A stretch of DNA of 53,648 bases from a bacterium (GTDB lineage Bacteria; SZUA-182; DTGQ01): assembly GCA_023512255.1 (NCBI GenBank), contig JAILZY010000017.1, forward strand, positions 1 through 53,648, in the 5' to 3' direction. Shown here one piece after another: positions 302 through 31,755 of the stretch. The position numbers and the translations under genes were made by a program. The notes beneath the pieces are model-generated. The model saw only the letters and a list, made by a program, of their open reading frames with translations. It did no database searches and was not told the origin of the DNA. The first letter of the stretch is position 1; every line of letters starts with the position of its first letter.

Positions 302-784
302 ATGAAAAATTATAAATTAGTGGTTTTAGGCTTAGGAAATCTCTTACTGAAGGATGAAGGCTTTGGTGTGCACTTTGTTCGCCGCTTTCAGAGGAAGTAT
401 CGGGTGCCTGAGCATATAGCCATAATTGACGGCGGCACTCTCGGTTATGCTCTGATGGATATTATCTGCCAGACAGAGCACCTTTTGGTAGTTGATACGG
501 TCAAGGCGGATGATGAGCCAGGGTCAATTTACCGATTTTCTCCACAGGCAATTCCTGCCTATCTGGATTATACGGCCAGCGCCCACGAGGTTGAATTTAT
601 GGATGTTCTGCTTAAGGCTGAGATGCTGGGGGAGGCGCCGGCCACAACGATTATCGCCGTGAGTGTGGGTGAGATCAAGGGAATGGGGATGGAGTTAAGC
701 AAGGTTATGGAGGATGCTCTTCTAAAAGTAGAAGATATGGTCAAACAAGAGATAAAGATTTTGAGCAAAGATTTCAGTTACTGA
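302..784 (+). CDS. hyaD: [NiFe]-hydrogenase maturation protease (HyaD/HybD family)
   Basis: This 160-residue protein matches the usual length of hydrogenase-specific endopeptidases, which remove the C-terminal tail of the large subunit once nickel is in place. Visible are the N-terminal GLGN motif at residues 10-13, Glu19 in KDEG, Asp65 in LLVVDT, and His95 in SAHE, the three expected nickel-sensing ligands. Its substrate is probably the large subunit two genes downstream, which keeps a 15-residue tail after its DPCxxCxxH motif. The gene comes first, 63 bp before the small subunit gene, whereas the protease more often follows the structural genes. The ATG at 302 is the only good start, although a Shine-Dalgarno sequence is weak. 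No hypA-F genes are in the window. Confidence 0.9.
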   Translation: MKNYKLVVLGLGNLLLKDEGFGVHFVRRFQRKYRVPEHIAIIDGGTLGYALMDIICQTEHLLVVDTVKADDEPGSIYRFSPQAIPAYLDYTASAHEVEFMDVLLKAEMLGEAPATTIIAVSVGEIKGMGMELSKVMEDALLKVEDMVKQEIKILSKDFSY

Positions 785-847
785 TCATTCAATGAAACGC
801 TTCCCGCTTAAACCGCCAATGGGGATGGTGGTGATAAGGAGGATGTT

Positions 848-2050
848 ATGGCCCTGGATGAAATGTTTTCAAACCAGAGTGAAGAACTGAGAGCTTGCTA
901 TAATGACCTGATGAAGAGGTGTGAGGTTCATCTTGATAAAATGCACCAGAAGCTTCCTCCGCCCAAAGATCGGTGGAATGAAATCTTGAATTCGCATGGG
1001 GTGAGCAGACGTGATTTTCTGAAATGGTGCTCGATCATGACTGCTGCCCTGGCCCTGCCGCCGGTCTTTACCCCCAAAGTGGCTAAAGCTGCCGGAATGG
1101 CCAACCGCCTTCCTGTGGTCTGGCTAAATCTGGCCGAGTGTACAGGCTGTACCGAGGCTTTACTTCGAACCGCCTATCCTGGGATAGATGATCTTATTCT
1201 GGATACGCTCTCCTTGGAGTATCATGAGACCCTAATGGCGGCCTCAGGCTATCAGGCTGAGGAGTGCCTGAGCGAGGCCCTGGAAAAATTTGCCGGCCAG
1301 TTTGTTTGTGTTATCGAGGGTGCTATTCCAATGGGCCTGAATGGAAAGTATCTGACCATTGGGGCCAAGGGGAAAACCGGATATGAGATAGCCAAAGAGG
1401 TAGCCTCAAAAGCGGCTATGGTAATCTGTATTGGCTCATGCTCTTCTTATGGAAACATTCAAGCAGCCAGGCCAAATCCAACCAAGGCTCGAGGGGTTGC
1501 TGAGGCGCTGAAAATTTCAACAGTCAATATTGCCGGCTGTCCCCCAAATGCCACCAATTTTGTTGGCACCCTGCTGCACTACCTCCTGTTTGGTGCTCTT
1601 CCTGCCCTTGACAGGCTGGGGCGTCCCTTGTGGGCCTATGGAAAGCGGATCCATGATTTTTGCGAGCGCCGGCCGCATTATGATGCCGGAGAATTCGTGG
1701 AGGAGTGGGGAGATGAGTACGCCAAGCGCGGTTTTTGTCTCTACAAGGTAGGCTGCAAAGGGCCCTACACCTATGCCAATTGCAGCCAGGTCCGGTTTAA
1801 CCAGGGTGTTTCATGGCCGGTGATGGCCGGGCATGGATGCATCGGCTGCACTGAGCCAGACTTTTGGGACAAAATGGCTCCTCTTGAAAAGCCGATGGCT
1901 GACCATGCTCCTCTTCCCCTAGCTGGAGTTGAGGCGACGGCTGATGAGATTGGTCTTGGATTGACTATGGTAACGCTGGCTGGAATTGGTGCCCATGCCC
2001 TGGGAAGTGTATTTAGGGGAGTTGGAAAAGAGAAAGGAGGCGAGGAGTAA
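848..2050 (+). CDS. hyaA: [NiFe]-hydrogenase small subunit, Tat-exported, group 1 type
   Basis: This is the 400-residue electron-transfer subunit of a membrane-bound uptake hydrogenase. A twin-arginine signal is seen as SRRDFLKW (Arg54-Arg55) followed by a hydrophobic stretch. It is preceded by an unusually long hydrophilic leader of about 50 residues, but an AGGAGG site at 838-843 supports the ATG at 848. Proximal cluster ligands include Cys98 and Cys101 (ECTGC), then GSCSSYGN and GCPPN. The distal cluster has IHDFC and further cysteines, and the medial cluster region ends in GCIGC. The two extra cysteines of O2-tolerant enzymes are absent: Gly lies between Cys98 and Cys101, and Asn follows GSCSSYG. 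An O2-sensitive standard enzyme is therefore inferred. A C-terminal hydrophobic helix near residues 368-390 probably anchors it to the membrane beside the cytochrome b. Confidence 0.95.
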   Translation: MALDEMFSNQSEELRACYNDLMKRCEVHLDKMHQKLPPPKDRWNEILNSHGVSRRDFLKWCSIMTAALALPPVFTPKVAKAAGMANRLPVVWLNLAECTGCTEALLRTAYPGIDDLILDTLSLEYHETLMAASGYQAEECLSEALEKFAGQFVCVIEGAIPMGLNGKYLTIGAKGKTGYEIAKEVASKAAMVICIGSCSSYGNIQAARPNPTKARGVAEALKISTVNIAGCPPNATNFVGTLLHYLLFGALPALDRLGRPLWAYGKRIHDFCERRPHYDAGEFVEEWGDEYAKRGFCLYKVGCKGPYTYANCSQVRFNQGVSWPVMAGHGCIGCTEPDFWDKMAPLEKPMADHAPLPLAGVEATADEIGLGLTMVTLAGIGAHALGSVFRGVGKEKGGEE

Positions 2051-2051
2051 C

Positions 2052-3725
2052 ATGGCCAGGCGTATTATCGTTGATCCGATTACCAGAATCGAAGGACATC
2101 TTCGAATTGAAGTAGAAATAGACGACCAAAACCGCGTTGTTGATGCCTGGAGTTCGGCTACTCTTTGGCGGGGGTTTGAGCTGATTTTAAAAGGAAGAGA
2201 CCCCAGGGATGCAGGTCTGATTACTCAGAGGTTTTGCGGCGTATGCACCTATTCTCACTACGAGGCAGCCACCCTGGCTGTAGAGGATGCCATTGGCGTG
2301 GTGCCGCCGAAAAATGCACGGCTCATTAGAAACCTTATCCAGGGGGCGCAATATCTTCATGATAAAATTGTGCACTTTTATCATCTTCACGGCCTTGATT
2401 GGGTGGATATTGTCAGTGCCCTATCAGCCAGGCCAGATGAGGCCGTAGATCTGGCCCGCAGTGTCTGTGAAACTCCTTATAACTGCTCGGTTACCCATTA
2501 TGAGGAAGTCCAAAAGCGCCTGACCGCCTTTGTTCAAAGTGGCCGCCTTGGCCCCTTTGCCCATGCCTATTGGGGCAATCCATCCTATAAACTCCCACCT
2601 CCAGCTAATTTAGTTATTGCCTCTCATTATTTGGATGCCTTGAGTGTCCAGCGAGTAGCTGCCCAGATGATGGCCCTGTTTGGCGGCAAAAATCCCCATC
2701 CGCAAACCTTGGTCGTCGGCGGTGTAACCAGTGTAATGGATGCTTTGAATACCAGCCGGTTGGGAGAATATCTCTACCGACTGAGAGAGGTGAAGAAATT
2801 CATTGAAACGGCTTATCTTCCCGATGTTCTCCTGGCTGCCCGCTATTACAAGGATGAAGGGATAGCAGGCATCGGCGCAGGAGTAAAAAATTACCTGAGC
2901 TATGGAGGATTTCCTCTTGATGATCAGTGGCATGGAAAACTTTTTCCCCGCGGGGTAATCCTGGGAGGAAATTTAAGCCAGGTATATGAAATTGATGAGA
3001 AAAAGATAACCGAAGAGGTAACTCATTCCTGGTATGAAGGCCAGGGCGCTGTGCATCCCTATGATGGTGAAACTAGGCCAAATTATACCGGTTTTGATGA
3101 GCAGGGAAACCTCAAAGGGAGCGAAAAGTATAGCTGGGTCAAAGCCCCTCGCTATGATGGAAAACCAATGGAAGTTGGCCCTCTGGCTCGGATTCTGGTC
3201 GGCTATGCCAGTGGAGATAAAAAGATCAGAGAACTGGTTGATGGATTAATCAGTAAAACTGGCCTTCCGACCGAAGCCCTTTTCTCAACCCTTGGCCGGA
3301 CAGCGGCTCGCTGTCTTGAGGCCAAACTGATCGCCGATAATGTCGAGGGGTGGGTTTTAGAGCTGGTGAGTAACATTAAGGCTGGTGACCAAAGGACCTG
3401 GACCCGATGCGATATTCCAAAATCAGCTCAAGGCCGGGGAATGACTGAAGCCCCAAGGGGTAGTCTGGGACATTGGATAAGAATCGAGAACAAGGCTATC
3501 GCTAACTACCAGGCGGTTGTACCCTCGACCTGGAATGCCTCACCTAGGGATGAGAAGGGGCAAAGAGGCCCATACGAGGAGGCCCTGATAGGAATCTTAC
3601 TAGCTAATCCTGATCAGCCCCTGGAGATTATCCGCACCATCCACTCCTTTGACCCCTGTCTGGCCTGTGCGGTCCATATTATTGATCCCCGAAAAAGCAC
3701 AATCAGAGAGTTTAAGATCCAGTGA
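2052..3725 (+). CDS. hyaB: [NiFe]-hydrogenase large (catalytic) subunit
   Basis: This 557-residue subunit holds the Ni-Fe site that splits H2. The N-terminal motif is RFCGVCTYSH (Cys62, Cys65, His69) and the C-terminal motif is DPCLACAVH (Cys536, Cys539). After that His come 15 residues that the HyaD-type protease should remove. RIEGHLRIEVEI near residue 12 is the usual family start. The chosen ATG at 2052 follows AAAGGAGGCGAGG and lies directly after the small-subunit stop; an in-frame ATG at 1986 would overlap the small subunit and is less likely. The protein has no signal of its own and is expected to ride out with the Tat-tagged small subunit. Confidence 0.96.
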   Translation: MARRIIVDPITRIEGHLRIEVEIDDQNRVVDAWSSATLWRGFELILKGRDPRDAGLITQRFCGVCTYSHYEAATLAVEDAIGVVPPKNARLIRNLIQGAQYLHDKIVHFYHLHGLDWVDIVSALSARPDEAVDLARSVCETPYNCSVTHYEEVQKRLTAFVQSGRLGPFAHAYWGNPSYKLPPPANLVIASHYLDALSVQRVAAQMMALFGGKNPHPQTLVVGGVTSVMDALNTSRLGEYLYRLREVKKFIETAYLPDVLLAARYYKDEGIAGIGAGVKNYLSYGGFPLDDQWHGKLFPRGVILGGNLSQVYEIDEKKITEEVTHSWYEGQGAVHPYDGETRPNYTGFDEQGNLKGSEKYSWVKAPRYDGKPMEVGPLARILVGYASGDKKIRELVDGLISKTGLPTEALFSTLGRTAARCLEAKLIADNVEGWVLELVSNIKAGDQRTWTRCDIPKSAQGRGMTEAPRGSLGHWIRIENKAIANYQAVVPSTWNASPRDEKGQRGPYEEALIGILLANPDQPLEIIRTIHSFDPCLACAVHIIDPRKSTIREFKIQ

Positions 3726-3754
3726 GTAGTTGAGGAAAGGAGGGTAAGGGGCCG

Positions 3755-4459
3755 ATGATAAGTTCAATGAAAAAAAGAAGGCAGGGCAGGGCAAAGCCCC
3801 TGGTGGCCAGAAAGCAGTGGTCTGTGGCCATGTGCATCAATCATTGGGCCATGGCTGTCTGCATCGTGATTCTGATTATTAGCGGATTATATATTGGCCG
3901 TCCCCTGACTATAGGAGCAGGGGAAACTTGGCAAAAGTTTTCTATGGCTAAGGTTCGCTTTATACATCTTATCTTTGGTTTTATCCTGACGGCGCTTTTT
4001 ATCTGGCGGATTTACCTGGCGTTTTTTTCGCGCTTTCATGCAGACTGGAAGGATTTTTTCGCCTGGCTCGATCTCAAGAGCGTATATCACCAGGTCAAGT
4101 TTTATATGCTTATTACCACCCAGATGCCTGAGCATACCGGACTATATGGGACCTTGCAGTCTGCGGCTTATGGTTTTTTGCTGCTCATGGTTTTTTTAGT
4201 CGTGATAACCGGCCTGATTCTTTACGCTGCCCTTTACCGAGCAGGACTTGGAGGCGCCATCTATATGTTTTCCCGGCATCTTGAAGGTGTTTTTGGTGGC
4301 CTGGCCGGAGCCCGCCTCATCCACCATATTCTGACTTGGGGCTTTGTCTTATTTATCTGCGTCCATACTTATCTAGCATTCTGGTATGATATTGTTTCCA
4401 AACGGGGCACTATTTCTTCGATTATCAGTGGACGAGTTTTTGAACATAGTGATATCTAA
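3755..4459 (+). CDS. hyaC: Hydrogenase-linked cytochrome b (HyaC-type)
   Basis: This 234-residue integral membrane protein has four predicted helices, near residues 24-48, 72-95, 140-165 and 185-213. Several histidines sit where haem ligands are expected: INHWAMA in helix 1, RFIHLIFG in helix 2, and RLIHHIL with FICVHTY in helix 4. In this family the b-type cytochrome takes electrons from the hydrogenase small subunit and reduces quinone. It is the last gene of the set, 29 bp after the large subunit, with a GGAGGG ribosome site before the ATG at 3755; a second ATG at 3767 is possible. A triple-hairpin repeat begins at its stop codon and may end the transcript. Confidence 0.88.
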   Translation: MISSMKKRRQGRAKPLVARKQWSVAMCINHWAMAVCIVILIISGLYIGRPLTIGAGETWQKFSMAKVRFIHLIFGFILTALFIWRIYLAFFSRFHADWKDFFAWLDLKSVYHQVKFYMLITTQMPEHTGLYGTLQSAAYGFLLLMVFLVVITGLILYAALYRAGLGGAIYMFSRHLEGVFGGLAGARLIHHILTWGFVLFICVHTYLAFWYDIVSKRGTISSIISGRVFEHSDI

Positions 4460-13210: not shown

Positions 13211-13218
13211 TTAAGTTA

Positions 13219-15397: not shown

Positions 15398-15416
15398 TGA
15401 CCGAATGGCTCTTTGA

Positions 15417-15456
15417 GTTGAGAAGAGTAAAATGGCGTTGAGAAGAGTAAGGTGGC
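15417..15456 (+). repeat. 20-bp tandem duplication at the gpsA start
   Basis: Two copies of GTTGAGAAGAGTAAxxTGGC at 15417-15436 and 15437-15456 differ at two bases. The second contains the AAGG that probably serves as the gpsA ribosome site. Confidence 0.9.
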
Positions 15457-15457
15457 T

Positions 15458-17549: not shown

Positions 17550-17639
17550 TATTGTCCGTATAGCATTGGTATTGGGTTTGGCGATAGCTTCTCTATCGCC
17601 TGAGTTAACCATCATTGTTTTTCATCCTTTTTTCAAAGA

Positions 17640-19196
17640 ATGGAGGTGATGGCAAAGAGTATGAGGAGAAGTAATAAATCTGGTCAAGAGGAAGGTTTGG
17701 AAGGAAAATATTACCATTTATACCAGAATGCCATTGACGGGCTATTTGCTGTTGATCATAATGGCTTTATCCATGACGCCAACAAAGCCTGTGAGCGGAT
17801 TACTGGATATTCAAGCCAAGAGCTTGAGAATATGCACTACAGTGAACTTCTGTCAGCTAAGGAAAAGAGGTTCATTGCTCACCATTTCAAGATGATTATC
17901 AATGAGCGGCTAATTCCCCGTTCTGATATTCAGATAGAGATCATTACCAAAGACCGCTCAACCAAGATGGTTGAGCTGCATATTCAAAATGAATTTTCGC
18001 AGGATGGGCTAATTCAGGCTTCGATCAGGGATATAACTGACAAGAAGAGGCTGGAGGATCGAATCATCAAGGCTCAGCGGATGGAATGCATCGGAAAGCT
18101 GGTCAATGATGTTGCGCATAAATTCAATGACATCCTGACTGGAATTCTAGGTTCTGCCTCATATCTGCGGGCTTGTGTGAGGGGGGATGGGGAGTGCTCA
18201 CGGTACGTTGAAACCATAGAAAAATCAGCCTCCGTAGGCGCTGAGCTCGTCTCTCAACTGATGGTTTTTGGCAATAGACAAGAATCACACTCGCAGCTAA
18301 TTGATATCAATGAGGTGATCAAAGAGGTTATCAGTCTGTTGCGAAACAATCATCTTTCCAGCCGGATCGAGGTTGACAGCCGGCTGCAGGAAGGCTCTCC
18401 CCTTGCAGTTCGAGCTGACAAGAGCCAGATCATGCAGGCGGTGATGAATATCTGCCATAATGCCAAAGATGCTATGCCACAGGGAGGAAAGCTGACCATT
18501 GTTACCGAAAGCCTGGCTTTGAACGAAGATTTTTGCCTCAAACACATTGGCCTTCGGCCCGGCAAATATCTCCGTATTCAAATATCAGACACCGGCTGCG
18601 GGATCGAAGAAAAATCGCTTCCCTATATCTTTGATCCCTTTTTTACTACCAAGGATGTCGGCAAGGGAACAGGGCTTGGCCTGTCGGTAGCCTTTGGTAT
18701 TATTAGAGCTCACCACGGCACCATTGACGTCAAGAGCCAAGTTGGTGTAGGTACAAGCTTTGATATCTATTTACCTGCTGCCTCCTCAAAGTCTGCTGCG
18801 GTCTGGGCTCGTGAAGACCAGATGAGCCCGGGAGAGGGGAGGGTTATGGTGGTCGAAGATGAAGACCTGGTACGGCGGATGACCTCTAATATTTTGGGGC
18901 GTTTAGGCTACAGGGTCCTGTGTGCCGCAGATGGAGAAGAAGCCCTTGAGCTTTATAAAAAGAATGTGGAGCCAATTGATCTTGTGATTTTGGATATGAT
19001 TATGCCCAAAAAAGATGGACTTGAGACCTTCAAGGAGTTAAAAGAGATCGACCAGAATGTCCGGGTTGTGATTTCAACCGGATACCTTCCAAACCGCATC
19101 AGCTCGGAGTTTCTAAAGGGTGGCGTAGTTGGCTTTATCCAAAAACCATATACGGCTATCGAGCTGTCAAAGCTGGTAAAGCGGGTTTTGGCCTGA
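17640..19196 (+). CDS. PAS-domain hybrid histidine kinase with C-terminal receiver
   Basis: This 518-residue soluble sensor kinase has, in order, a PAS domain (about 25-140), HisKA with phospho-acceptor His160 in DVAHKFND, an HATPase domain with N box NICHNAKDAM, G1 box DTGCGIEE and GTGLGLSVAFG, and a receiver (about 400-518) with Asp452 in LVILDMIMP. It lacks transmembrane segments, so it probably senses a cytoplasmic signal. Possible starts are ATG 17640, 17649 and 17661; GGAGG at 17642-17646 favours the third. The first is given as the outer limit. No output regulator is adjacent. Confidence 0.9.
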   Translation: MEVMAKSMRRSNKSGQEEGLEGKYYHLYQNAIDGLFAVDHNGFIHDANKACERITGYSSQELENMHYSELLSAKEKRFIAHHFKMIINERLIPRSDIQIEIITKDRSTKMVELHIQNEFSQDGLIQASIRDITDKKRLEDRIIKAQRMECIGKLVNDVAHKFNDILTGILGSASYLRACVRGDGECSRYVETIEKSASVGAELVSQLMVFGNRQESHSQLIDINEVIKEVISLLRNNHLSSRIEVDSRLQEGSPLAVRADKSQIMQAVMNICHNAKDAMPQGGKLTIVTESLALNEDFCLKHIGLRPGKYLRIQISDTGCGIEEKSLPYIFDPFFTTKDVGKGTGLGLSVAFGIIRAHHGTIDVKSQVGVGTSFDIYLPAASSKSAAVWAREDQMSPGEGRVMVVEDEDLVRRMTSNILGRLGYRVLCAADGEEALELYKKNVEPIDLVILDMIMPKKDGLETFKELKEIDQNVRVVISTGYLPNRISSEFLKGGVVGFIQKPYTAIELSKLVKRVLA

Positions 19197-19243
19197 TAAA
19201 CACTGCTTCAAACATTATGGGCGGCTCGGAAAGAGCGAAAGTG

Positions 19244-20113
19244 CTAAAAGTGGGTAAGGCTTCCATCCCGTTTGGCCTTGTCTACGGCTAGACGAAAGCA
19301 GAGGACGCTAAGCGGCAGCATAATAAGCGAGAAAAGACCAAGGCCCATGATATTCGGACTAAGCTCTCTCAGAGAGTAGCCCTTTAAGAGAGCTAGCCTC
19401 ATCCCCTCCAGCGAGTAGGTCAGGGGGATAAGGTATGAGAATTTCCTGAGCCAGGCAGGCAGGACCGCGATCGGATAATACACTCCGCCCAAAAACCAGG
19501 ATAGCCCTGAAAATATGTTGGCCACCGGATCCCCCTTCTTCATCACCATGATGAAGCTGGCCGAGATGATGCCGATGCTGCTGAAGGTGGTGATGGTCAG
19601 GAGTAGAATTACCCCCGCGGCGGTGAAATTAGCCTGGCTGATATTGACCTTGAACAGAAGGATGCCGATTAGGAGATAGACAACTACCCGAAATGAGGTC
19701 CACAGGAAGCTATAGAGCGAGGAAGAAATAATAATGGTTGGTATTTCGGTCTGGGTAACCAGAACAGCTTCTAAGGTGCCGGTCATCTGGGCATTTCTGA
19801 TGCTGGAGGAGAAGCTGTGGAGGGCAACCTCAAGATAGTTGCTAAAAGCTACGCCGATCAGCACAAAGGAGAAATAATCTCCGCCGTAAGGTGCAAGAAA
19901 GGCACTCGCCGCGGCTCCAAAGAGCTTGGCGATAAAATAGAATACTAAAACTGATATGAAGATACTAAAGAACTGGAGAAAGAAGGAGAATTTGTAGCTT
20001 GTCTCCTCGATAAAATCTCTCTGAATAAAGGCTAAAGCCTTTCTGGCAAAACTCAAACCCTTAAAGCTCCACTCATTCTTAATATTATTCTTAATTCTTA
20101 ACCTAATCTTCAA
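19244..20113 (-). CDS. ABC-2 type exporter permease
   Basis: This 289-residue protein has six likely membrane helices and the typical ABC-2 ending, where a gate region (WFLGGVYYPIAVLPAWLRKFSYLIPLTYSLEGMR, read as separate blocks) precedes the last helix. It overlaps the preceding ATPase gene by four bases and would form a two-gene exporter. The substrate is unknown; drug or lipid-linked glycan export are the usual roles. The N-terminal 20 residues are basic and may be a dispensable extension. Confidence 0.87.
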   Translation of the reverse strand: MKIRLRIKNNIKNEWSFKGLSFARKALAFIQRDFIEETSYKFSFFLQFFSIFISVLVFYFIAKLFGAAASAFLAPYGGDYFSFVLIGVAFSNYLEVALHSFSSSIRNAQMTGTLEAVLVTQTEIPTIIISSSLYSFLWTSFRVVVYLLIGILLFKVNISQANFTAAGVILLLTITTFSSIGIISASFIMVMKKGDPVANIFSGLSWFLGGVYYPIAVLPAWLRKFSYLIPLTYSLEGMRLALLKGYSLRELSPNIMGLGLFSLIMLPLSVLCFRLAVDKAKRDGSLTHF

Positions 20114-21132
20114 TCTATAATTTTATCATCCCTGGTATAGGCTGCATAGATTTCAGACAGGGGGATTTCCTTTTTTAGGCAGCCTTCTATCCGTGCGCCT
20201 AGAGAAACCATGCAGGCAATCACATCAGGGATTTGCAGCCTGCTTTCTGCCGCCTCTGGACTGGTAGTAGTGCCAAGGGTGATTTCTAATTCGCTCATCC
20301 CATCAGCCTTAATGCTGATTTGGCTATCGAGCTGTTGACTTAGCCTACCAATAAAGTCAGGAGTAAGTGACTGCAAGCGAATGACATACCGCTCCAGCCG
20401 CTCAAGCAAAAGGTCCTGAGGTCTGCCGCAAGCTTTGACTCTTCCCTCATGGATGATGGCCAGCCGGTGTCCGATCTCTTCAACCTCCTTCAGATTATGG
20501 GTGGCCAGGAAAACAGTTTTCCCCTCCCGGTCGACAAGCTGTCGACGGATAAAGCATCGTAAGGACTCAGCACTGGCAGGATCAAGAGAGCGGGTAGGCT
20601 CATCCATGAACAGAACCTGCGGGTCAGTTAGCAGGCTACGGGCAATAGCCAGCCGCTGCTTCATCCCTAGGGAGAAATCCTTGAACAGGGTCTTGGCCTT
20701 GTCGCTTAGGCCAACAAGTTTCAGGACGTGGCTGATCCGCTGAGTTAGCTCTGCGGCTGGAATATTATTCAGGATGCCGAAAAATTTCAGATTCTGCCAA
20801 GCAGTGAGCCGCCAGTAAAAACTGCGCTCCTCACTGATGACGTAGCCGATGGCTTTTCTCACCTTGGCCGGGTGAGCAACCACATCAAGCCCATTGACCA
20901 TAGCCCGGCCCTCGGTCGGTAGCATCAGGGTACAGAGAATCTTGATCAGGGTGGTCTTGCCCGCTCCGTTTGGCCCAAGGAGACAAAATACCTCACCCTG
21001 CTTGACCTTCAAGGAGACGTCCTGAAGAGCAACTACCTCCTTCCAGGAGAAGGGAGCTTTCAGGATTTCCTGAAAGCTCCTCATTTGAGTGAATTTTTTA
21101 GTTATCCCAAAGGTTTCAATAGCTAAGCACAT
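20110..21132 (-). CDS. ABC exporter ATP-binding protein
   Basis: This 340-residue ATPase has Walker A GPNGAGKTT, signature FSLGMKQRLAIARSLL, Walker B VLFMDEPT and a His switch FLATHNL. About 100 extra C-terminal residues follow, as is common in ABC-2 (DrrA/NatA-like) ATPases. It pairs with the permease overlapping its 3' end. The ATG at 21132 is preferred; the longer frame to 21177 is read from the right hairpin of a dispersed repeat and gives an odd leader. The Shine-Dalgarno site is weak either way. Confidence 0.9.
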   Translation of the reverse strand: MCLAIETFGITKKFTQMRSFQEILKAPFSWKEVVALQDVSLKVKQGEVFCLLGPNGAGKTTLIKILCTLMLPTEGRAMVNGLDVVAHPAKVRKAIGYVISEERSFYWRLTAWQNLKFFGILNNIPAAELTQRISHVLKLVGLSDKAKTLFKDFSLGMKQRLAIARSLLTDPQVLFMDEPTRSLDPASAESLRCFIRRQLVDREGKTVFLATHNLKEVEEIGHRLAIIHEGRVKACGRPQDLLLERLERYVIRLQSLTPDFIGRLSQQLDSQISIKADGMSELEITLGTTTSPEAAESRLQIPDVIACMVSLGARIEGCLKKEIPLSEIYAAYTRDDKIID

Positions 21133-21141
21133 ATAGCCATT

Positions 21142-21224
21142 TTGGAAGGAACCCTTTTTCAAAAGGGTTCCTTCCAAACCATTCTCCTAAAACTTTAATA
21201 GCTATAAGTTATTAAAGTTTTAGG
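21142..21224. repeat. Hairpin dispersed repeat, copy 3 (two of three hairpins)
   Basis: Hairpins at 21142-21177 (stem TTGGAAGGAACCC) and 21186-21224 (stem CCTAAAACTTTAAT) match copies 1 and 2, while the GGGGAAAACC hairpin is absent. It lies just beyond the cooS stop on the transcribed strand and may be its terminator. Confidence 0.85.
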
Positions 21225-21233
21225 AAAGGGGTT

Positions 21234-23180
21234 CTATATCCCCAGCACCTTTCGTTTAGCCTCGATATGTTCGCTGATCAGTTTGGCTCCAGCTATGGGG
21301 TCAGGTTCCACGGCAAAGCGGGCACCCATAACCTTCTCGACTCCTTGAGACAGGAGATGGGTAACATTTTGGCTTCCCAGAATGGGTGGCACTACCCCAA
21401 GGAGCACAAAGATACCAGAAGCTACCACATAGGCCCCGATGCTGATAGCCTTCTCCGACATGTATTCTGGTGCTGCTCCGGCCAGCGGCAGATCGCTGAT
21501 ATCCACACCAAGGGCATTGGCAGCTTCAGCCGCTAGGCTCATGATTCGGCTGATATCCACACACGAGCCCATGTGGAGTACGGGCGGGATGCCAAGCTGA
21601 CGGCAGAGGGCCGAAAGTCCAGGGCCAGCCTGTGCAGCTGCCTCAGGCCGCATGAGCCCTGCCTTGGCGCAGGCAATGGCTGCACAGCCTGTTTCCACGA
21701 CCAGGATATCCTTTCCGATAAGCTCTTTGGCCAGGGTGGTGTGGGCAAAATCCTGCTTGACCTTGGGATTGTTGCAGCCGACAATGGCCACAATGCCTCG
21801 GATGGTGCCCGATTTGATGACCTCAATGAGTGGCCCAAGACTGCCGCCCAGAGCCTCAGCAATAGCCTCTTTGCTGAATCCAGCCATAAATTCCATCCGA
21901 TTTTCTGGAATGCACACCTTCTGTTGCTGTCGGTTGGGATAATTTAGCACAGCTAATCTCACGATCTGCCGGGCAGCCTGAAGGGCCTGATCACCCTTCT
22001 CATGGAAGTCAATGTGCAGGGCAGCAGGGAATTTAGCCTTAGCTGAGGTTGAGATGATTTTAGTATGGTAGCAGCCAGCCACAGTGGTCAGTGAGGGCAT
22101 GATGCACTGAACATCGACCACCATAGCCTCAACCGCTCCGGTGATGATGGCTAGCTCCTGTTGGAGGAAGTTTCCAGCCACAGGAAGCCCCCGGCGCATC
22201 AGAATTTCATTGCCAGTGCAGCACATGCCGAGGCAATTGATCCCCTTGGCCCCTACCTCTTTAGCCAGGGCCAGAAGTTCTGGCTCGGTAGCCACTTGGC
22301 TGACTATCTCAGACAGCAGGGGCTCATGCCCATGGAGGATAATATTGACCTCATCAGCCTTAAGTACTCCAAGGTTACTTTGGCAGGTCTTGATTTGTGG
22401 ACTGCCAAAGAGGACATCGGAAAGCTCGGTGGCGGCCATGGAACCTCCCCAGCCGTCAGAGAGCGAGGCCCGCAGGCCTTGAAGCATGAGATTGACATAG
22501 TCGTTGTCTACGCCAATATGGGTGCGGTGCATGATCTCAACAATTTCACGGTCAATGCCGCGGGGTGTGATCCCAACTGTTTCCCACAGGTTGCGGCGTT
22601 TTTGGGGAACGCGGCTGAGAAATTGCAAATACCCTTTGCGGGTGCCAAATTCATCTAGGATAGCCTCAGCAAGCTGTCGGGCGATTTCCTCTGGGCTTTT
22701 GCCTTGCACTTCAAGGCCAAATTCAGTAGCCAAGGCCTTGAGCTTTTTCTCATCCTTGATCGCATAGCCAGCTATCTTACCCTGGCTAGTCAGATAGAGC
22801 ACCTCGACCACATCACGGCCATGATCTGAGTGGGCCGCGGCTCCAGCGGCAATCATCCGAAGGAGATTGCGGGCAACGATGATATCAGAGGTGGCTCCAC
22901 AAACTCCTTTCTTGGGACCATTTTCCAGAGGATCTATTCGGCAGGGCCCCATCAGGCAATTGCGGCAGCATAGACCAAGTTCTCCAAACCCACACTGGGG
23001 ATTTTGAGCCTCGTAGCGGTCCCAGGCGGTTTCTATCCCTTCTCGGGAAGCTTTCTCCAGGAGGAGCTGTGAGGCTGGGTCTGAGGATCTTTCGGCCACC
23101 GGCTTTCTCTCAATCTCTTTCTGAATACAGGCATTCCATAGTGGATGTTTTTGCTCTTTGATATTATCATCACGGTCCAT
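21234..23180 (-). CDS. cooS: Anaerobic Ni-CO dehydrogenase catalytic subunit
   Basis: This 648-residue CooS homodimer subunit oxidises CO to CO2 at a Ni-Fe-S C-cluster. The N-terminal cysteines for clusters D and B are all visible: Cys63, Cys71, Cys72, Cys75, Cys80 and Cys94. C-cluster ligands are LHGHEP, LGMCCTG, VDVQCIMP, VGCNNP, ETGCAAI and MGSCVD, so no ligand appears missing. GGAGGTT eight bases before the ATG supports the start. It is the last gene of a leftward operon after a CooF-type ferredoxin and a CooH/CooL-type hydrogenase. No cooC or cooJ nickel-insertion gene is in the window. Confidence 0.97.
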   Translation of the reverse strand: MDRDDNIKEQKHPLWNACIQKEIERKPVAERSSDPASQLLLEKASREGIETAWDRYEAQNPQCGFGELGLCCRNCLMGPCRIDPLENGPKKGVCGATSDIIVARNLLRMIAAGAAAHSDHGRDVVEVLYLTSQGKIAGYAIKDEKKLKALATEFGLEVQGKSPEEIARQLAEAILDEFGTRKGYLQFLSRVPQKRRNLWETVGITPRGIDREIVEIMHRTHIGVDNDYVNLMLQGLRASLSDGWGGSMAATELSDVLFGSPQIKTCQSNLGVLKADEVNIILHGHEPLLSEIVSQVATEPELLALAKEVGAKGINCLGMCCTGNEILMRRGLPVAGNFLQQELAIITGAVEAMVVDVQCIMPSLTTVAGCYHTKIISTSAKAKFPAALHIDFHEKGDQALQAARQIVRLAVLNYPNRQQQKVCIPENRMEFMAGFSKEAIAEALGGSLGPLIEVIKSGTIRGIVAIVGCNNPKVKQDFAHTTLAKELIGKDILVVETGCAAIACAKAGLMRPEAAAQAGPGLSALCRQLGIPPVLHMGSCVDISRIMSLAAEAANALGVDISDLPLAGAAPEYMSEKAISIGAYVVASGIFVLLGVVPPILGSQNVTHLLSQGVEKVMGARFAVEPDPIAGAKLISEHIEAKRKVLGI

Positions 23181-23269
23181 GCTTAGGCTAACCTCCTTGT
23201 TTGGGCTCTTAAATATGCTCTTATTATCTAGATATGGGTATTATTATTCTGCTAATAGCTAAAAAGAGT

Positions 23270-23845
23270 TTACTTTTGGATACCTAGGCCCCTGAAAAGA
23301 TCGCGGGCACTTTGCTCAAGGTGTGCTTGTCTCCACCTTTCAGGAATGACCATAACCAGAGAGTGCGTAGGACAGGCCTGGATGCAGGCAGGCTGCTTGT
23401 CCTGGATTAGACGGTCATAGCACAGGTCGCATTTATCCGCGACCAGAGCCTGCCTCTCTCCATACTGGCTCCCACCGCCAGCGGCAGTAGCCTGGCGATG
23501 GACTAGCTCAATGGCTCCGAAGGGACAGACCATCATGCAGGTTTTGCATCCAATACATATTTCCTTGTTCAGCTCAACTCTTCCCTCAGCCTGTCTAATA
23601 GCTCCTAGTGGACAGACGCGGCTGCATGGGGCATCCTCACAATGGCGGCACTGCATGAGCATGGTAACCTCATCCACAATTACCAGAGAATTTCTGGCCG
23701 CTAGGGGAACTTTCTGAACCAGCGCGCTGGCCAGGTCCATCTTTGCTCCAGCCGCGGCACAGGCCAATCGGCAACTGTGGCAGTGGCGGCACTTTTGGGG
23801 ATCAGCAAGAATAAATGGATTGCCAGAAAAGATCTGCTCTCTCAT
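23270..23845 (-). CDS. cooF: CooF-like four-cluster ferredoxin
   Basis: This 191-residue iron-sulfur protein has four [4Fe-4S] motif sets: CRHCHSCRLAC, CRHCEDAPCSRVCP, CIGCKTCMMVCP and CDLCYD with ACIQACP. This is the CooF/HycB/DMSO-reductase electron-transfer pattern. By position it should carry electrons from CooS to the CooH/CooL hydrogenase module. AAGGAAGGTG before the ATG at 23845 supports the start. It lies 89 bp before cooS and 105 bp after cooH, a gap that contains a duplicated cooH 3' end. Confidence 0.92.
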   Translation of the reverse strand: MREQIFSGNPFILADPQKCRHCHSCRLACAAAGAKMDLASALVQKVPLAARNSLVIVDEVTMLMQCRHCEDAPCSRVCPLGAIRQAEGRVELNKEICIGCKTCMMVCPFGAIELVHRQATAAGGGSQYGERQALVADKCDLCYDRLIQDKQPACIQACPTHSLVMVIPERWRQAHLEQSARDLFRGLGIQK

Positions 23846-23919
23846 TTTTTTTCACCTTCCTTAGATTATCCTTGTTATCCTTAAATTAATCATAGATAGC
23901 ATAAATGCAATCATCTTTC

Positions 23920-23972
23920 CCCTATCGTTCGAGAGGCAAGCATAGTATCCCTATCGTTCGAGGCAAGCATAG
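23920..23972 (-). repeat. Tandem duplication of the cooH 3' end
   Basis: On the plus strand, CCCTATCGTTCGAGgcaagcatag-type sequence occurs at 23949-23972, where it encodes CYACLER-stop, and again at 23920-23945 beyond the stop with two extra bases (AG). The offset is 29 bp. The extra copy is downstream of the stop and should not be translated. Confidence 0.93.
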
Positions 23973-25033
23973 CAGGGATCAGCGCTGGCCACAATCAGCG
24001 GAACATCTTCGGGCTGGGCATCCATGAGCATCATTTTCAGAGCCTCAAGGTTATATTCTGTCGGAGTGGTGATCTTGATCTGCTCGATCTGAAGATGAGC
24101 CGAGAGGGTAAGTTGGTAGTGGTTTTCTCCTCGTGGGGCTTCCACAGATCCTGCGGCTTGGCCGGGGAGAAGGAGAGGCGGCGGATCAACTGACAGCTTG
24201 CCTTGAGGCAGGGAAGAGAGAATCTGTCGGATCATTCTGATACTCTCTATGATTTCAAGTATCCGAATTTCATATCTGGCTAGAACATCTCCTCGGCTGC
24301 TGGTGGGTATCTGAAATTTCAACTCAGGATAGGCTGCATACCCGCCCCCTTCTTTTCTAAGATCGCGGGCAAGGCCGCTGGCTCTGGCCACTGGCCCAGT
24401 GGCCAGGCTGCTTTCGGCAGCCTGAGACGAGAGAAAGCCAAGCCCTTTTAGCCGCTCATGCCTGAGGAGAGAGCCTCTTGCCTCATCCAGGGGGCGATCA
24501 AAGCTGCCTAGCATTGACAGCATGGTTTGGGCAACCTCGGCCTTTTTTAGGTCAACTCTTACCCCCCCGATCTGATTGACATCATAGTTGACTCTTTTTC
24601 CGGTCAGCAGGCAGAGCATAGCTGCCGCTGCTTCCCTGGCCTCAAAAAGTAACCGTAGGCAAGATGAGGAGGCATTCAGATGAGCGGCTAGGCAGATCAG
24701 GGGAAGAAGGTGTGATTGAATACGCTCGATCTCGGCCACAAGAGTCCTAAGATAAGCAGCCCGGCGGGGAATTTGTACCTTGGCCAGGCTCTCTAAGGTC
24801 TGGCAAAAGCAGAGAGTGTGGCTGATGGGGCAGATGCCACAGATTCTCTGAAGGAGAATGAGATTCTGCCAAATGTTTTGTTTTTTGGCCAGATGCTCGA
24901 TTCCCCGCTGAGCATAGCCCAGCGATACCCGAACCTGGCTGACGCGGCCATGCTGGAGGTCGTATTCGATCGTGAGCGGACTTCCTATGGCCGGAAGATA
25001 AGGATCTAGAGGAAGGCGGGATGTTGGTGACAC
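23951..25033 (-). CDS. cooH: CO-induced-type [NiFe]-hydrogenase large subunit (CooH-like)
   Basis: This 360-residue protein has the short length of group 4 hydrogenase large subunits related to complex I NuoD. All four Ni-binding cysteines are kept: RICGICPISH (Cys65, Cys68, with His72) and DPCYACLER (Cys354, Cys357). The protein ends three residues after the last Cys, so it has no C-terminal tail for a protease to remove. GTG at 25033 is the start, placed three bases after the cooLX stop within a G-rich ribosome site, so the two are tightly coupled. It has no membrane segment. It should produce H2 from, or pass to other acceptors, electrons delivered by CooF. Confidence 0.9.
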   Translation of the reverse strand: MSPTSRLPLDPYLPAIGSPLTIEYDLQHGRVSQVRVSLGYAQRGIEHLAKKQNIWQNLILLQRICGICPISHTLCFCQTLESLAKVQIPRRAAYLRTLVAEIERIQSHLLPLICLAAHLNASSSCLRLLFEAREAAAAMLCLLTGKRVNYDVNQIGGVRVDLKKAEVAQTMLSMLGSFDRPLDEARGSLLRHERLKGLGFLSSQAAESSLATGPVARASGLARDLRKEGGGYAAYPELKFQIPTSSRGDVLARYEIRILEIIESIRMIRQILSSLPQGKLSVDPPPLLLPGQAAGSVEAPRGENHYQLTLSAHLQIEQIKITTPTEYNLEALKMMLMDAQPEDVPLIVASADPCYACLER

Positions 25034-25036
25034 CCG

Positions 25037-26026
25037 TTAGCACCCCCTTTCTTGAATAAGCTGGTGAAGATGCTGCAACCCCTCGGCTGCTGTTTTCAGA
25101 TAGCGGGCTGAGGCAATTTTGCGGCAGGTTGGACAAAGCTCAAGCCACCTTTGGTCAGGGAGTGAGCCAAGCGTTTGTTTGATAAAATCTTTTGGCATGG
25201 CTACCATCCATCCCTGGCAGTTTAGACAGCGGACAAGGGAAAGACAGCCGCGGACCACAAACTCTTGCGGCCGCTGCCGAATCAGAGTGCCTGAGCCACG
25301 GAGCTTAAGGCAGCCTGTCGGGCAGAGCTGCTCGCACAGAGAGCAAAAGAGGCAGGCCGCCTGGTTGAACTCTACCAGGATCGATCCTGCTTCGCCGACT
25401 GCCAGCTCCTGAGCAATGCTTAGCCTGATAGCCTGAGCTGGGCAGATTTGCTGGCATAGGCCGCAGCCAAGACAAAGCTCAGAATGAAACTCTATCCGGT
25501 TGGTCTCCACGCCTCGGGCGGCTTCAGCAGATAGCCGGCCACTACAGCAGGCAAGGCGGTGCAGCCCTTGCCATATATCCTCTGGTGTCGGTGGGCATCC
25601 AGCTACATAAAGATTGGGGGAAAATTCCTGGATCGGATTCTGCCATGAAGAATCAAAAGCGTGAGGTAGCCCTTGGGCTGTCCCTGCGCAGGGGGCTGCT
25701 ATCCAGCCGGCTGATTTAAACAGCGTGCCCGCTATGGCGCAGGCTCCTACTGCTAGTCGCTGGCAGGTGGGATTAAAGCGGAGAAGAAATGCCTTGAGCA
25801 CCTGATAGGCTTCCCGTTTCAGAGAACCGAAGAGAAGAATCAGGTCAGCAGACTCAGGCTGGCTGACAAATTTACATCTAAATCCCTCAGACTGCTGAGA
25901 ATGAAGAAAAAGGGATAGAACTTCAAACTCGCAGCCGCCACAGCCGCCAGCATTGAAAACAAATACAGAATATGGTTGGGAATACCTTGGATCATTGGGT
26001 GAAGAACATTCTCCGGCGACATTCAT
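25037..26026 (-). CDS. CooL-type hydrogenase small subunit fused to a CooX-like ferredoxin and a zinc-ribbon-like tail
   Basis: This 329-residue protein has three parts. Residues 15-165 resemble CooL/NuoB small subunits, with proximal-cluster ligands Cys29 and Cys32 (CGGCE), Cys96 (GAC) and Cys144 (GCPP). Residues 180-245 form a two-cluster ferredoxin with CLGCGLCQQICP and CLFCSLCEQLCP. Residues 260-310 hold two CxxC pairs, Cys267/Cys270 and Cys298/Cys301, spaced like a zinc ribbon or rubredoxin-like knuckle. In known Coo and Ech systems the small subunit and the polyferredoxin are separate proteins. It is the first gene of the operon, with GAGG nine bases before the ATG at 26026. No membrane subunit gene lies upstream; the next gene is divergent. 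Confidence 0.88.
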   Translation of the reverse strand: MNVAGECSSPNDPRYSQPYSVFVFNAGGCGGCEFEVLSLFLHSQQSEGFRCKFVSQPESADLILLFGSLKREAYQVLKAFLLRFNPTCQRLAVGACAIAGTLFKSAGWIAAPCAGTAQGLPHAFDSSWQNPIQEFSPNLYVAGCPPTPEDIWQGLHRLACCSGRLSAEAARGVETNRIEFHSELCLGCGLCQQICPAQAIRLSIAQELAVGEAGSILVEFNQAACLFCSLCEQLCPTGCLKLRGSGTLIRQRPQEFVVRGCLSLVRCLNCQGWMVAMPKDFIKQTLGSLPDQRWLELCPTCRKIASARYLKTAAEGLQHLHQLIQERGC

Positions 26027-26168
26027 GAAGAAAACCTCATGATTTTTAAGGTTATTGCTTGAAATGCCCCATGACTTTTCAAAATTTTTTATAGCTCAAG
26101 ATTACCAGGAGAATAATAAGTTGTCAAATTTATTTCCAACTTTCCAATCACTTCATAAAAAATCTCGA

Positions 26169-26198
26169 TTGACAATTGAATCTCCTATGCCGTATTCT
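26169..26198 (+). promoter_or_regulatory. Possible sigma-70 promoter for rpn-like copy 2
   Basis: TTGACA at 26169-26174 and TATTCT at 26193-26198 are separated by 18 bases, about 80 bp before the ATG at 26280. The match is good but not tested. Confidence 0.4.
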
Positions 26199-26279
26199 AT
26201 TTTCGAGAAAAGAATTTCTCGGCACCAGTCGCCAAAGAAGATAAGCAAGAAGATCATCAAGGGAATAGAGGATAGTGTG

Positions 26280-27248
26280 ATGTCGGCCAAGCGGTTTAAT
26301 CCGTATGATCGAAGTCTTAAGGTTTTAGCCAGGCTCTACCCACGGATATTCTTGAGCCTGCTGAATTTGGGCGAAGGGGTAGTAGTGGCGGTAGAGAATC
26401 CTGAGATTAACCTGCCGGAAAAGCGAGCTGACTATGTCTGGCGGCTGACCACTGAGAGCGGTGAGGAGGGATATATTGCGCTTGAGTTTCAGCTTGCCGG
26501 AGGCAGTGAAGCTCTGCGGCGCTGCTTTGTCAAGTGTGCTCTAGTGCATGAGGTGAGCGGTCTTCCCGTGATCGGGGTAATTCTATATCTTACCCCAAAG
26601 GGCCTGAGTGATACCTACACCATGAGATTTGATGAGTGCAGCAATTGGTATCATTTTGAGACGATCAAGCTGTGGGAGTTCCGACAAGAAATCGAGAGTG
26701 GAAAGAGAAAGGAGCTTGCACCTTTTCTCATTCTATTTGCCGATGAGCCTGTCAAGGAGGTCTTGGACAGGGAGAAGACCTTAATTATGCAGGTTGAGAA
26801 TGAAAAGGAGAGAGCAAATCTCTTATCAATAGCCATGACTCTTGCCCTTCACCGGCTGAAGGAAGAGGAGTGGGTGAGAGAGTATTTCAAAGAGGAGATG
26901 ACTATGATCAAGACAGCAGGTATCTTTGAAGAGTGGCTAGAAGAGAGCCTGGAGAAGGGGTGGAAAAAAGGCCACCAGGAGGGGCTTCAGCAGGGGCTTC
27001 AGCAGGGGCTTCAGCAAGGGCTTCAGCAGGGGCTTCAGGAGGGGCTTCAGCAGGGGCTTCAGCAAGGTATGCGGGAGGGGCTGCTTGCGGCTATCTCCCT
27101 TGGATTGGAGTTGAAATTCGGAGTCGAGAGTTTGAGACTTCTAGCTCGAATCGGTGCAATAGACTCGATTGAGAAATTAATGGCTATTAAAGAGACAATT
27201 AGAGTAGCTAAGGATTTAAAGGAAATAGAGAGGCTGCTTCAGGAGTAG
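26280..27248 (+). CDS. Rpn/YhgA-like PD-(D/E)XK family protein, copy 2
   Basis: This 322-residue paralogue of the 7946-8905 protein shares PYDRSLKVLARLYP, VENPEINLPEKR, the Asp in RADYVWRL, the acidic-x-Gln motif LEFQL, and FETIKLWEFRQEIESGKRKE. The C-terminus has tandem GLQQ/GLQE units from a 12-bp repeat that differs from that of copy 1, so the coils expanded separately. The ATG at 26280 is preferred over an in-frame upstream start at 26055, because the family begins at SAKRFNPYDRS and a promoter-like pair lies in between. It is divergent from the coo operon, with 253 bp between the starts. Confidence 0.72.
   Translation: MSAKRFNPYDRSLKVLARLYPRIFLSLLNLGEGVVVAVENPEINLPEKRADYVWRLTTESGEEGYIALEFQLAGGSEALRRCFVKCALVHEVSGLPVIGVILYLTPKGLSDTYTMRFDECSNWYHFETIKLWEFRQEIESGKRKELAPFLILFADEPVKEVLDREKTLIMQVENEKERANLLSIAMTLALHRLKEEEWVREYFKEEMTMIKTAGIFEEWLEESLEKGWKKGHQEGLQQGLQQGLQQGLQQGLQEGLQQGLQQGMREGLLAAISLGLELKFGVESLRLLARIGAIDSIEKLMAIKETIRVAKDLKEIERLLQE
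26981..27074 (+). repeat. In-frame 12-bp tandem repeat inside rpn-like copy 2
   Basis: The unit GGGCTTCAGCAG is repeated about seven times and encodes (GLQQ)n with GLQE variants. The unit length preserves frame on slippage. Confidence 0.9.
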
Positions 27249-27300: not shown

Positions 27301-28473
27301 ATGAGCAGGGTTTTCTCAGGCTTAGATGTCCTTCGGGAAGGAGACCTTCAGGGGTTAGGCCAAAGAGTAGGTTTGCTGGCTCATCCGGCCTCGGTGGCTT
27401 CGGACCTTACCCACGCAGTGGTGATCTTTAGGGAAAAGCTGGCTGATAGGCTGGTTTGCCTTTTGGGGCCCCAGCATGGGTTATATGGAGAGACCCAGGA
27501 TAACATGATTGAGTGGGAGGATTTTTATGAGCCAAACTTTGGCCTTGCAGTCCACAGCCTATATGGCCGAAGCCGCAAACCGCAAAAGTATATCCTGGAT
27601 AAGATCGATACCCTAATAATTGATTTGCAGGATGTCGGTGCTCGCTACTACACCTTTATCTGGACCATGGCCCTATGCCTCGAAGCCTGTGCGGAGCAGA
27701 AGGTCAAGGTGGTGGTTTTAGATCGGCCAAATCCGCTTGGGGGACTGAAAGTTGAAGGAAATGTTTCAAGTCATGATTTTCTGTCCTTCGTTGGGCTTTA
27801 TCCCCTGCCAGTGTGTCATGGCCTGACTATAGGTGAGCTGGCCTGTCTGCTGAACCAACACTATCGGATCAATGCTCAACTGGAGGTGGTCTGGATGGAG
27901 GGGTGGAGGCGCTGGATGAGTTTTTCCGACACTGGGCTGCCTTGGGTGGCTCCTTCGCCGAATATGCCTGGGCTGCAAACTGCCCGGGTTTATCCAGGGA
28001 TGTGCCTGCTGGAAGGGACGAATATCTCTGAGGGAAGGGGCACAACCCTGCCCTTTGAGCTCTTTGGGGCTCCCTTCATCCAGCCTTGGGATATGGTCCG
28101 CGAGCTTGGCTATCATTCCCTGCCGGGAGTAGTCTTCAGGCCTTGCTACTTTAAGCCCATGTTTCATAAATTCCAAGGTGAGCTGTGCGCAGGAGCCCAA
28201 GTGCACATCACAGATTGGGATTCCTTTAAACCCTACCTGACTGCAATCGCCATTCTAAAGACAATTAATCACTTGTACCCTGATCGACTGAAGTGGAAAC
28301 TTCCCCCTTATGAATATGAATACGAAAAGTTGCCGATTGATATCCTCTGCGGTACGGATCAGATCCGGCGCAGGATCGAGCAGCATGCTCCCCTGGCTGA
28401 GATTGAAGAGAGCTGGAGGAGAGATCTGGAGGAATTTTTGGCTATCCGGCGCAATTATCTTCATTATGAATAG
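27301..28473 (+). CDS. namZ: Exo-beta-N-acetylmuramidase NamZ-like (DUF1343)
   Basis: This 390-residue protein carries the DUF1343 signatures GLLAHPASV, GPQHGLYGETQDNM, IDLQDVGARYYTFIWTM, DRPNPLGG, CHGLTIGELA and EGTNISEGRGTT. Characterised members release MurNAc from the non-reducing end of peptidoglycan fragments. No signal peptide is seen, so it would act in the cytoplasm or be exported by another route. The murU- and amgK-like genes follow on the same strand after about 300 bp, which supports a MurNAc salvage role. AGGGGAAG precedes the ATG, and the start region is partly duplicated (GTGAGCAGGGG then ATGAGCAGGG). Confidence 0.85.
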   Translation: MSRVFSGLDVLREGDLQGLGQRVGLLAHPASVASDLTHAVVIFREKLADRLVCLLGPQHGLYGETQDNMIEWEDFYEPNFGLAVHSLYGRSRKPQKYILDKIDTLIIDLQDVGARYYTFIWTMALCLEACAEQKVKVVVLDRPNPLGGLKVEGNVSSHDFLSFVGLYPLPVCHGLTIGELACLLNQHYRINAQLEVVWMEGWRRWMSFSDTGLPWVAPSPNMPGLQTARVYPGMCLLEGTNISEGRGTTLPFELFGAPFIQPWDMVRELGYHSLPGVVFRPCYFKPMFHKFQGELCAGAQVHITDWDSFKPYLTAIAILKTINHLYPDRLKWKLPPYEYEYEKLPIDILCGTDQIRRRIEQHAPLAEIEESWRRDLEEFLAIRRNYLHYE

Positions 28474-28775
28474 GGATATGGGCTTGGAACTATCCTTGGT
28501 AAAATTAAGACTATACTTTTGCAATTGTTATAAACTACTTGAAATGTTCTATATTTTCACCTTTTTTTACAATCAGTTAACATATTGATTTTGTACTAAC
28601 ACTTATTTTACCCCCCCTATTTCAAGCGCTTATAAAAAGTGCAAGAATATAGAACGTAAAGTGCAAGAATATAGAAGGTATAGAAAAAATATAGAAATAG
28701 TGAATAGTGTTAAACCACAGTGTTAAGCTAGTGTTAAACCATAGTTTTAAACTATAGTGACTATGATAATATAGA
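28474..28775. other. AT-rich gap with short tandem repeats before murU
   Basis: No gene is seen in these 302 bp. A 22-bp unit, AAAGTGCAAGAATATAGAAC-like, occurs twice at about 28636-28680. GTGTTAAACCA-type units recur three times at 28708-28760. The stretch probably holds the murU promoter, but no clear boxes stand out. Confidence 0.6.
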
Positions 28776-30907: not shown

Positions 30908-30926
30908 CCATTGGATAAACCTTATG

Positions 30927-31029
30927 CCAGAGCGAATGCTTGATTGCATTTTAAAATCAATCAGTTAACTTTCACAAAATGTGTGAGTTAACATTATGGA
31001 ATATAAAGCTTTTTAGGTGTTCGCTCTGG
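30927..31029. repeat. Nested palindromic element between convergent genes
   Basis: Outer ends CCAGAGCGAA (30927-30936) and TTCGCTCTGG (31020-31029) are perfect inverted repeats about 100 bp apart. Inside, 30964-30992 forms a hairpin with GTTAACT and AGTTAAC arms. It lies between amgK (+) and the receiver gene (-), so it may act as a terminator or be a small mobile element. Confidence 0.75.
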
Positions 31030-31136
31030 ATTCAGGATAACCCAAGATGGCTAATTACTAAATTACTACATAAGAGATCTACTACTCTGCACCGATAGAT
31101 CGTTCCTGGCCTCAGTCATTACCTCTGATTGGAAAA

Positions 31137-31517: not shown

Positions 31518-31755
31518 GGTTTAGTTTCTCCAAATAGCATAGTGACCATTGCTTTCTTATCGCTCATTTATTTCTAAAAAAGACGGTGGAAGGAGCGATT
31601 TTCTTATGAATCTTTATGGAAAAATTTTGATTTATTGGGAAAATAAGATAGAATAACTTAGTTGTAAAATAACTTAGTTATCGTTAGATATTTTAGGGGA
31701 AAAGATATATTTTTGATCTTTGGTAGCTGAAATTAACGATTATTGAGGTGATGGC

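Follow-up and report, generated by a model that had tools for sequence, protein, structure and literature searches.

The stretch of DNA analysed here, referred to as the window, is a 53,648-nucleotide bacterial contig (GTDB lineage SZUA-182; DTGQ01; JAILZY010000017.1 of assembly GCA_023512255.1). On its minus strand, from 26026 down to 21234, lie four intact open reading frames (ORFs) without frameshifts or stops, in the order cooLX, cooH, cooF and cooS, each assigned with Pfam and NCBIfam models. Together they encode a carbon monoxide dehydrogenase (CODH), a ferredoxin and the catalytic module of a group 4 [NiFe] hydrogenase. The gap between cooLX and cooH is 3 bp, followed by gaps of about 105 bp between cooH and cooF and about 89 bp between cooF and cooS, and Shine-Dalgarno-like sequences precede cooH, cooF and cooS. 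The ORF list of the operon includes no other redox enzyme or flavoprotein, and the operon has neither a maturation protease of its own nor CooC.

The first gene (25037..26026, minus strand) encodes a 329-residue protein, identified by Oxidored_q6 and Fer4 models, a match to the HycF model and alignments. A CooL domain with cluster cysteines Cys29, 32, 96 and 144 is fused in frame to a CooX domain with two [4Fe-4S] ferredoxin motifs. Residues 245-329 (25040..25294, minus strand) form a HycF-like C-terminal extension, in which Cys267/270 and Cys298/301 align with Cys117/120/155/158 of Escherichia coli HycF. The E. coli quartet has been reported to bind metal and lies next to HycB/FdhF (PMC9474812).

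The large subunit, CooH (360 residues; 23951..25033, minus strand), was characterised with Pfam and NCBIfam models, trees and an AlphaFold model. It matches Complex1_49kDa and NiFeSe_Hases, and its Ni cysteines, Cys65, Cys68, Cys354 and Cys357, are all present within the motifs RICGIC and DPCYAC, which have the group 4 forms RxCGxC and DPCxxC. The protein ends exactly at DPCYACLER, three residues past the last cysteine, and therefore no cleavable C-terminal peptide is encoded. Trees that included complex I relatives separated group 4 from NuoD with support of 100/99 and put CooH on the hydrogenase side, without fixing its position inside group 4. The label "CooH-type" is thus used loosely, for what is by sequence a group 4 large subunit without an assigned subgroup. 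The AlphaFold model has a predicted local distance difference test (pLDDT) score of 89 overall and of 60 in residues 11-20, and its fold matches that of HycE of formate hydrogenlyase (FHL) and that of complex I. At 23905-23965 the 3' end of cooH is imperfectly duplicated as a short tandem (TATGCTTGCCTC..GAACGATAGGG twice), with the second copy right after the stop codon.

CooF (191 residues; 23270..23845, minus strand) is a CooF/HycB/HydN-type ferredoxin with four Cys motifs. Its best NCBIfam model is HydN, and its best matches in the PDB are HycB4 and HycB3 of the hydrogen-dependent CO2 reductase (HDCR), then HycB of FHL. CooS, the Ni-CODH (648 residues; 21234..23180, minus strand), scores 716.6 bits against TIGR01702, for which the cut-off is 478. 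Its C-, B- and D-cluster ligand motifs and acid-base motifs are present, with the Cys/His motifs aligned to PDB entry 6t7j and five homologues. By bit score, as opposed to a tree, CooS is closer to 6t7j (810 bits) and 6b6v (731 bits) than to 1jqk and ChCODH-II (574 bits). Both 6t7j and 6b6v are presumably clade E enzymes.

These results agree with most of a prior sequence-only reading, which had described an intact leftward four-gene operon at 21234-26026 with a CooH-type large subunit bearing all four Ni-site cysteines, a CooF-type ferredoxin and a CooS with complete cluster ligands. Two details required addition or correction. The small subunit was described as CooL-type and the first gene as cooLX; the Oxidored_q6 domain and cluster cysteines are there, and CooL and CooX form one chain. 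The operon was also said to end at cooS with a hairpin. A strong hairpin does lie 3' of cooS (21183..21227, minus strand; -28.2 kcal/mol, z -6.5, by folding energy), but it is AT-rich without a U-tract and was not called by the terminator scan, and the next two genes on that strand, about 57 bp further on, are of the ATP-binding cassette (ABC) transporter type. Therefore, the end of the operon at cooS is not proven.

Membrane subunits in the genome and in relatives

The window is one contig of a genome of 3.83 Mb in 172 contigs, estimated to be 96.6% complete. No NuoC, NuoH or antiporter gene lies near the operon, as the sequence-only reading had stated, and the genome search that it had proposed for CooM, CooK, CooU or Ech membrane genes found no arm that could be assigned to this hydrogenase. 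The only NuoH-family gene (PF00146) is inside a complex I operon on contig C147, where NuoB, C, D and I are encoded as well, and no NuoC-like subunit was noticed in the genome besides that of complex I. There are two proteins of the 49-kDa family: CooH itself and the NuoD of complex I, which lacks Ni cysteines. Outside complex I, antiporter-type genes are confined to two clusters, on contigs C42 and C77, with no hydrogenase gene among the ORFs seen there. Within the limits of 96.6% completeness, a membrane arm for the operon hydrogenase is absent from the genome. The C77 cluster (G000, about 10900-24650; L036) is a big Mrp-like cluster in which several antiporter-type genes, one encoding a protein of about 995 residues, are interleaved with a sensor kinase and a response regulator. 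A full cluster for CODH and acetyl-CoA synthase (CODH/ACS), with a second, different CooS, is on contig C153, apart from the operon cooS; HypD is encoded on the same contig.

No CooH closer than 39% identity turned up in three surveys, of 386, 82 and 388 genomes that overlapped in part, and the closest in the 386 genomes have 34-39%. Among the 20 nearest CooH loci examined, a few of them cut by contig ends or shifted, the well-covered ones have NuoB, NuoC, NuoH and antiporter genes alongside. Neither CooLX nor CooH lies alongside in any of the nearest CooS loci that were examined (55-62% identity). In the surveyed genomes, no close relative of the operon was found, either lacking or carrying the membrane arm, and the distant ones (34-39%) carry membrane genes. 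The sole result of a contig scan with CooH was an Endomicrobiales locus of 35% identity with a full membrane arm; the scan patterns fell on poorly conserved stretches, such that it is no proof of rarity, and the samples of two phylum-level CooH searches were too small. CooH-like proteins with CxxC and DPCSAC motifs (G068, G210) were considered as close relatives and rejected, given that they are not close and adjoin membrane genes. CooH-like genes with CPTC and DPCSAC were also seen at L145 9359-10465 and L146 3320-4393, among membrane-protein genes, with NuoB and NuoI not recognised nearby. Group 4 large subunits at L041 and L043 (G121, G259) are read through one TGA and possibly contain selenocysteine, and L045 is, from its motif, presumably of the Rhodospirillum rubrum CooH type.

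Membrane subunits belong to the published CODH/hydrogenase complexes (PMC13077300), and surveys of CODH gene context list the accessory subunits of energy-converting hydrogenases (ECH) together with the catalytic ones (PMC6344411; PMC13056359). The literature searched, which was covered in part, yielded no account of a group 4 hydrogenase linked to a CODH in the absence of membrane subunits. The operon shares CooS, CooF and a group 4 [NiFe] module with the CODH/ECH Coo complexes of R. rubrum and Carboxydothermus hydrogenoformans and with CooS-CooF-HyfGHI-HyfBCDFE of Parageobacillus (PMC13077300), and the predicted reaction, CO + H2O -> CO2 + H2, is the same. In contrast to those complexes, it has no antiporter, NuoH-like or NuoC-like subunit (CooM, CooK, CooU or equivalents), its CooL and CooX are fused, and the His and Glu of the β1-β2 loop of CooH are lost. 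The soluble arm of E. coli FHL (HycB, HycE, HycF and HycG) has counterparts in the HycB-like ferredoxin, the HycF-like Cys quartet and the HycG-like and HycE-like parts, but here CooS stands instead of FdhF, HycC, HycD and the NuoC-like domain are missing, and the HycG and HycF parts are one chain. HDCR would be alike in that HycB-type ferredoxins connect a cytoplasmic C1 dehydrogenase to a hydrogenase, as is proposed for this operon; however, HDCR combines formate dehydrogenase with an [FeFe] hydrogenase and the operon combines CooS with a [NiFe] enzyme, and neither catalytic subunit is homologous. The highest identity to CooH in the tree set, 38%, is with a group 4 hydrogenase of Azospirillum. 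The Azospirillum and Butyrivibrio large subunits (plasmid loci L120, L123 and L121) end at DPCxxCxxR, as CooH does, but their loci have NuoH-like, antiporter and NuoC-like genes and no CooS in the part shown.

Residues lost at membrane-facing sites

A common coupling mechanism is assumed for group 4 hydrogenases and complex I, with the β1-β2 loop connecting the active site and the membrane arm. In FHL and in the membrane-bound hydrogenase (Mbh), this loop is at the interface with the membrane arm (PMC9474812, PMC11228991). Near-invariant positions of CooH (n=52) were defined as those at which no more than one of the 42 group 4 references differs. CooH retains 45 of the 52, canopy included, and the losses are concentrated at the N-terminus, with four of five such positions lost within residues 1-30 (G10D, H13L, E18S and E29G) as compared to three of 47 elsewhere (Fisher p = 6e-4). 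By alignment and model, the β1-β2 loop comprises residues 10-19 (24977..25006, minus strand), with the near-invariant G10, H13 and E18 replaced by D, L and S; in the AlphaFold model these three fall between the strands at 5-9 and 20-27. The loop His and Glu are found in 42/42 group 4 references, and CooH has Leu13 and Ser18 in their place. The H13 position aligns with HycE His188, which contacts membrane subunits, and the E18 position with HycE Glu193, a proton donor (PMC9474812).

The other active-site positions that were checked are retained in 11 of 11 cases, namely the four Ni cysteines and the equivalents of HycE His248, Ser283, His284, Arg395, Glu437, Arg478 and Asp529 (in CooH numbering, Cys65/68/354/357, His72, Ser107, His108, Arg217, Glu260, Arg301 and Asp352). 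The CooL domain has lost D45, R48 and G50, which are invariant or present in 32/33 of the references, so that its membrane-facing loop motif D-x-E-R-x-G reads Q-S-E-G-F-R. It also has N30G, at the equivalent of MbhJ Asn36, and a Glu at the position of MbhJ Arg64, where 31/33 references have Arg or Lys; MbhJ Arg64 ion-pairs with the membrane subunit MbhM (PMC11228991). In the CooX domain the first cluster motif is reached after a short linker from CooL, and about 45 N-terminal residues of separate CooX-type subunits are absent. The corresponding stretch of HycF carries a helix at the membrane surface (PMC9474812). As judged from these alignments, the losses in CooH and in the CooL and CooX domains cluster at sites where the membrane arm would sit. 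This is the pattern to be expected of a long-established soluble form, rather than of a recent deletion.

A candidate soluble CO:H+ oxidoreductase

The gene set, the cofactor ligands, the missing membrane partners and the specific loss of membrane-contact features can be read directly from the sequence. From these parts, we infer complex formation, solubility, an order of electron transfer, H2 production and H2 re-oxidation. The operon is, with somewhat better than even confidence, proposed to encode a soluble CO:H+ oxidoreductase, in which the electron-transfer half of a CODH/group 4 hydrogenase system would work without the ion-pumping membrane arm. CO would be oxidised at CooS, and electrons would pass through CooF, with its four clusters, then the pair of clusters in the CooX domain and the proximal one in the CooL domain, to reach the [NiFe] site of CooH, where H+ would be reduced to H2. 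The net reaction would be CO + H2O -> CO2 + H2, with no energy conserved within the CooLXHFS complex. The H2 would probably be re-oxidised by a group 1 uptake [NiFe] hydrogenase encoded, with its maturation protease and b-type cytochrome, at 302..4459 on the plus strand (ORFs; HyaD/HybD and CytB-hydrogenase models). In architecture, the enzyme could be seen as a CO counterpart of HDCR, or as the soluble arm of FHL with CooS replacing FdhF. The sequence-only reading had raised the same function as a possibility, and the genome-wide lack of an arm and the protein-level signatures lend it support.

Several points weigh against this assignment. The Fisher split at residue 30 was picked after the data had been seen and is thus retrospective, and many of the references are related. 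The operon comes from one genome only, of which 3.4% may be missing. The CooH branch is among the longest in the trees (1.9-2.3, versus a median of about 0.2), such that a change of function is also possible. The chief cause for doubt is the loop Glu (HycE E193, MbhL E21), which is reported to be strictly conserved and essential, soluble hydrogenases included (PMC9474812); the E28Q variant of E. coli Hyd-1 showed that it is critical for one of two proton steps (PMC11228991). A route through Mbh His75 has been computed as an alternative for the other proton step (PMC11228991), and its equivalent, His72, is kept in CooH. Given that the loop Glu is missing, catalysis may be reduced, biased or altered, and a role other than H2 chemistry is possible too.

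Such a role is the rather unlikely, though most serious, alternative: CooLXH would no longer evolve H2 and would serve as a soluble electron relay or CO/redox sensor between CooS and another acceptor, with a catalytically changed [NiFe] site. The loss of a Glu found in 42/42 references, the N30G change in the small subunit and the very long CooH branch would fit this, but CooH still has the Ni cysteines, the canopy Arg, Asp and Ser, His72, His108, Glu260 and Arg217, every cluster ligand is retained, and the operon encodes no other redox enzyme or flavoprotein. It is very improbable that the operon is a decaying remnant of an ordinary CODH/ECH operon with its membrane genes deleted. Although the well-covered loci of the nearest relatives have membrane genes and a tandem duplication touches the 3' end of cooH, the four ORFs are intact, CooL and CooX are fused in frame, and the losses are clustered at the interface while active-site residues are kept.

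No greater probability is given to a split-gene pump, in which the module docks in trans on a membrane arm, that is, on NuoH of complex I or the Mrp-like antiporters of C42 and C77. Genes for a NuoH-containing complex I and for several antiporter-type proteins are indeed present in the genome, but the lost residues are those that contact NuoH-type and antiporter subunits, the sole NuoH belongs with the NuoB, C, D and I of its complex I operon, and the only NuoC-like subunit is that of complex I. Least probable, by a little, is operation mainly in reverse, as an H2-dependent reductase of CO2 that feeds CO to CODH/ACS. That cluster, complete on contig C153, has its own CooS, and reduction of CO2 to CO by H2 is uphill under standard conditions, even though HDCR, the formate counterpart, does act as a CO2 reductase (PMC7005907). 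The soluble enzyme is favoured over a truncated operon because the Ni ligands and canopy of CooH are kept, while its residues facing the membrane arm, the loop motif of the small subunit and the N-terminal stretch of the ferredoxin part are lost.

If true, the soluble oxidoreductase would be a natural uncoupling experiment, in which the arm and the loop residues were dropped together and the catalytic core was kept, and it would separate the residues that serve catalysis from those that serve pumping. It would also be of practical interest as a compact, soluble enzyme for the water-gas shift, and would represent a use of CO in which energy is conserved only via re-oxidation of H2.

Neighbouring genes and chromosomal setting

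The gene at 27301-28473, which flanks the operon, is 81% identical to its counterpart in the genus, and 71% and 67% identical to those elsewhere in the family. A sister species (G001) has the same gene order on both flanks of the operon, over 27301-35430 on one and at the two ABC genes on the other, with 17 kb of other genes in the interval between. Therefore, the operon lies in a variable interval of the native chromosome. Contamination of the contig was considered and rejected, since identity of the flanking gene drops with kinship and gene order is common with the sister species. No comparable CooH was found in other members of the class within the 386-genome survey, and the operon was likely gained horizontally. 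The matching interval in the sister species (contig C87, about 42300-45300; L156 6917-9863) holds genes for the small, large and FAD/NAD subunits of a group-3-like [NiFe] hydrogenase. A link between the operon and clade B ABC transporters was rejected as well, given that the neighbours are DrrA/B-like ABC-2 genes by Pfam and NCBIfam and that their orthologues occur in the sister species without the operon.

The divergent ORF upstream of the operon (26055-27248) resembles another at 7772-8905. Both have QQG repeats and match no Pfam family above the cut-off, and we take them to resemble Rpn-type transposase/nuclease genes. A flavo-diiron-type protein, with an ODP lactamase fold and a flavodoxin domain, is encoded at 46242-47435 and is typical of anaerobes that handle O2 or NO. 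Genes for Cas4 and Cas1 lie at the edge of the window (51238-53275), probably as part of a CRISPR locus that extends beyond it.

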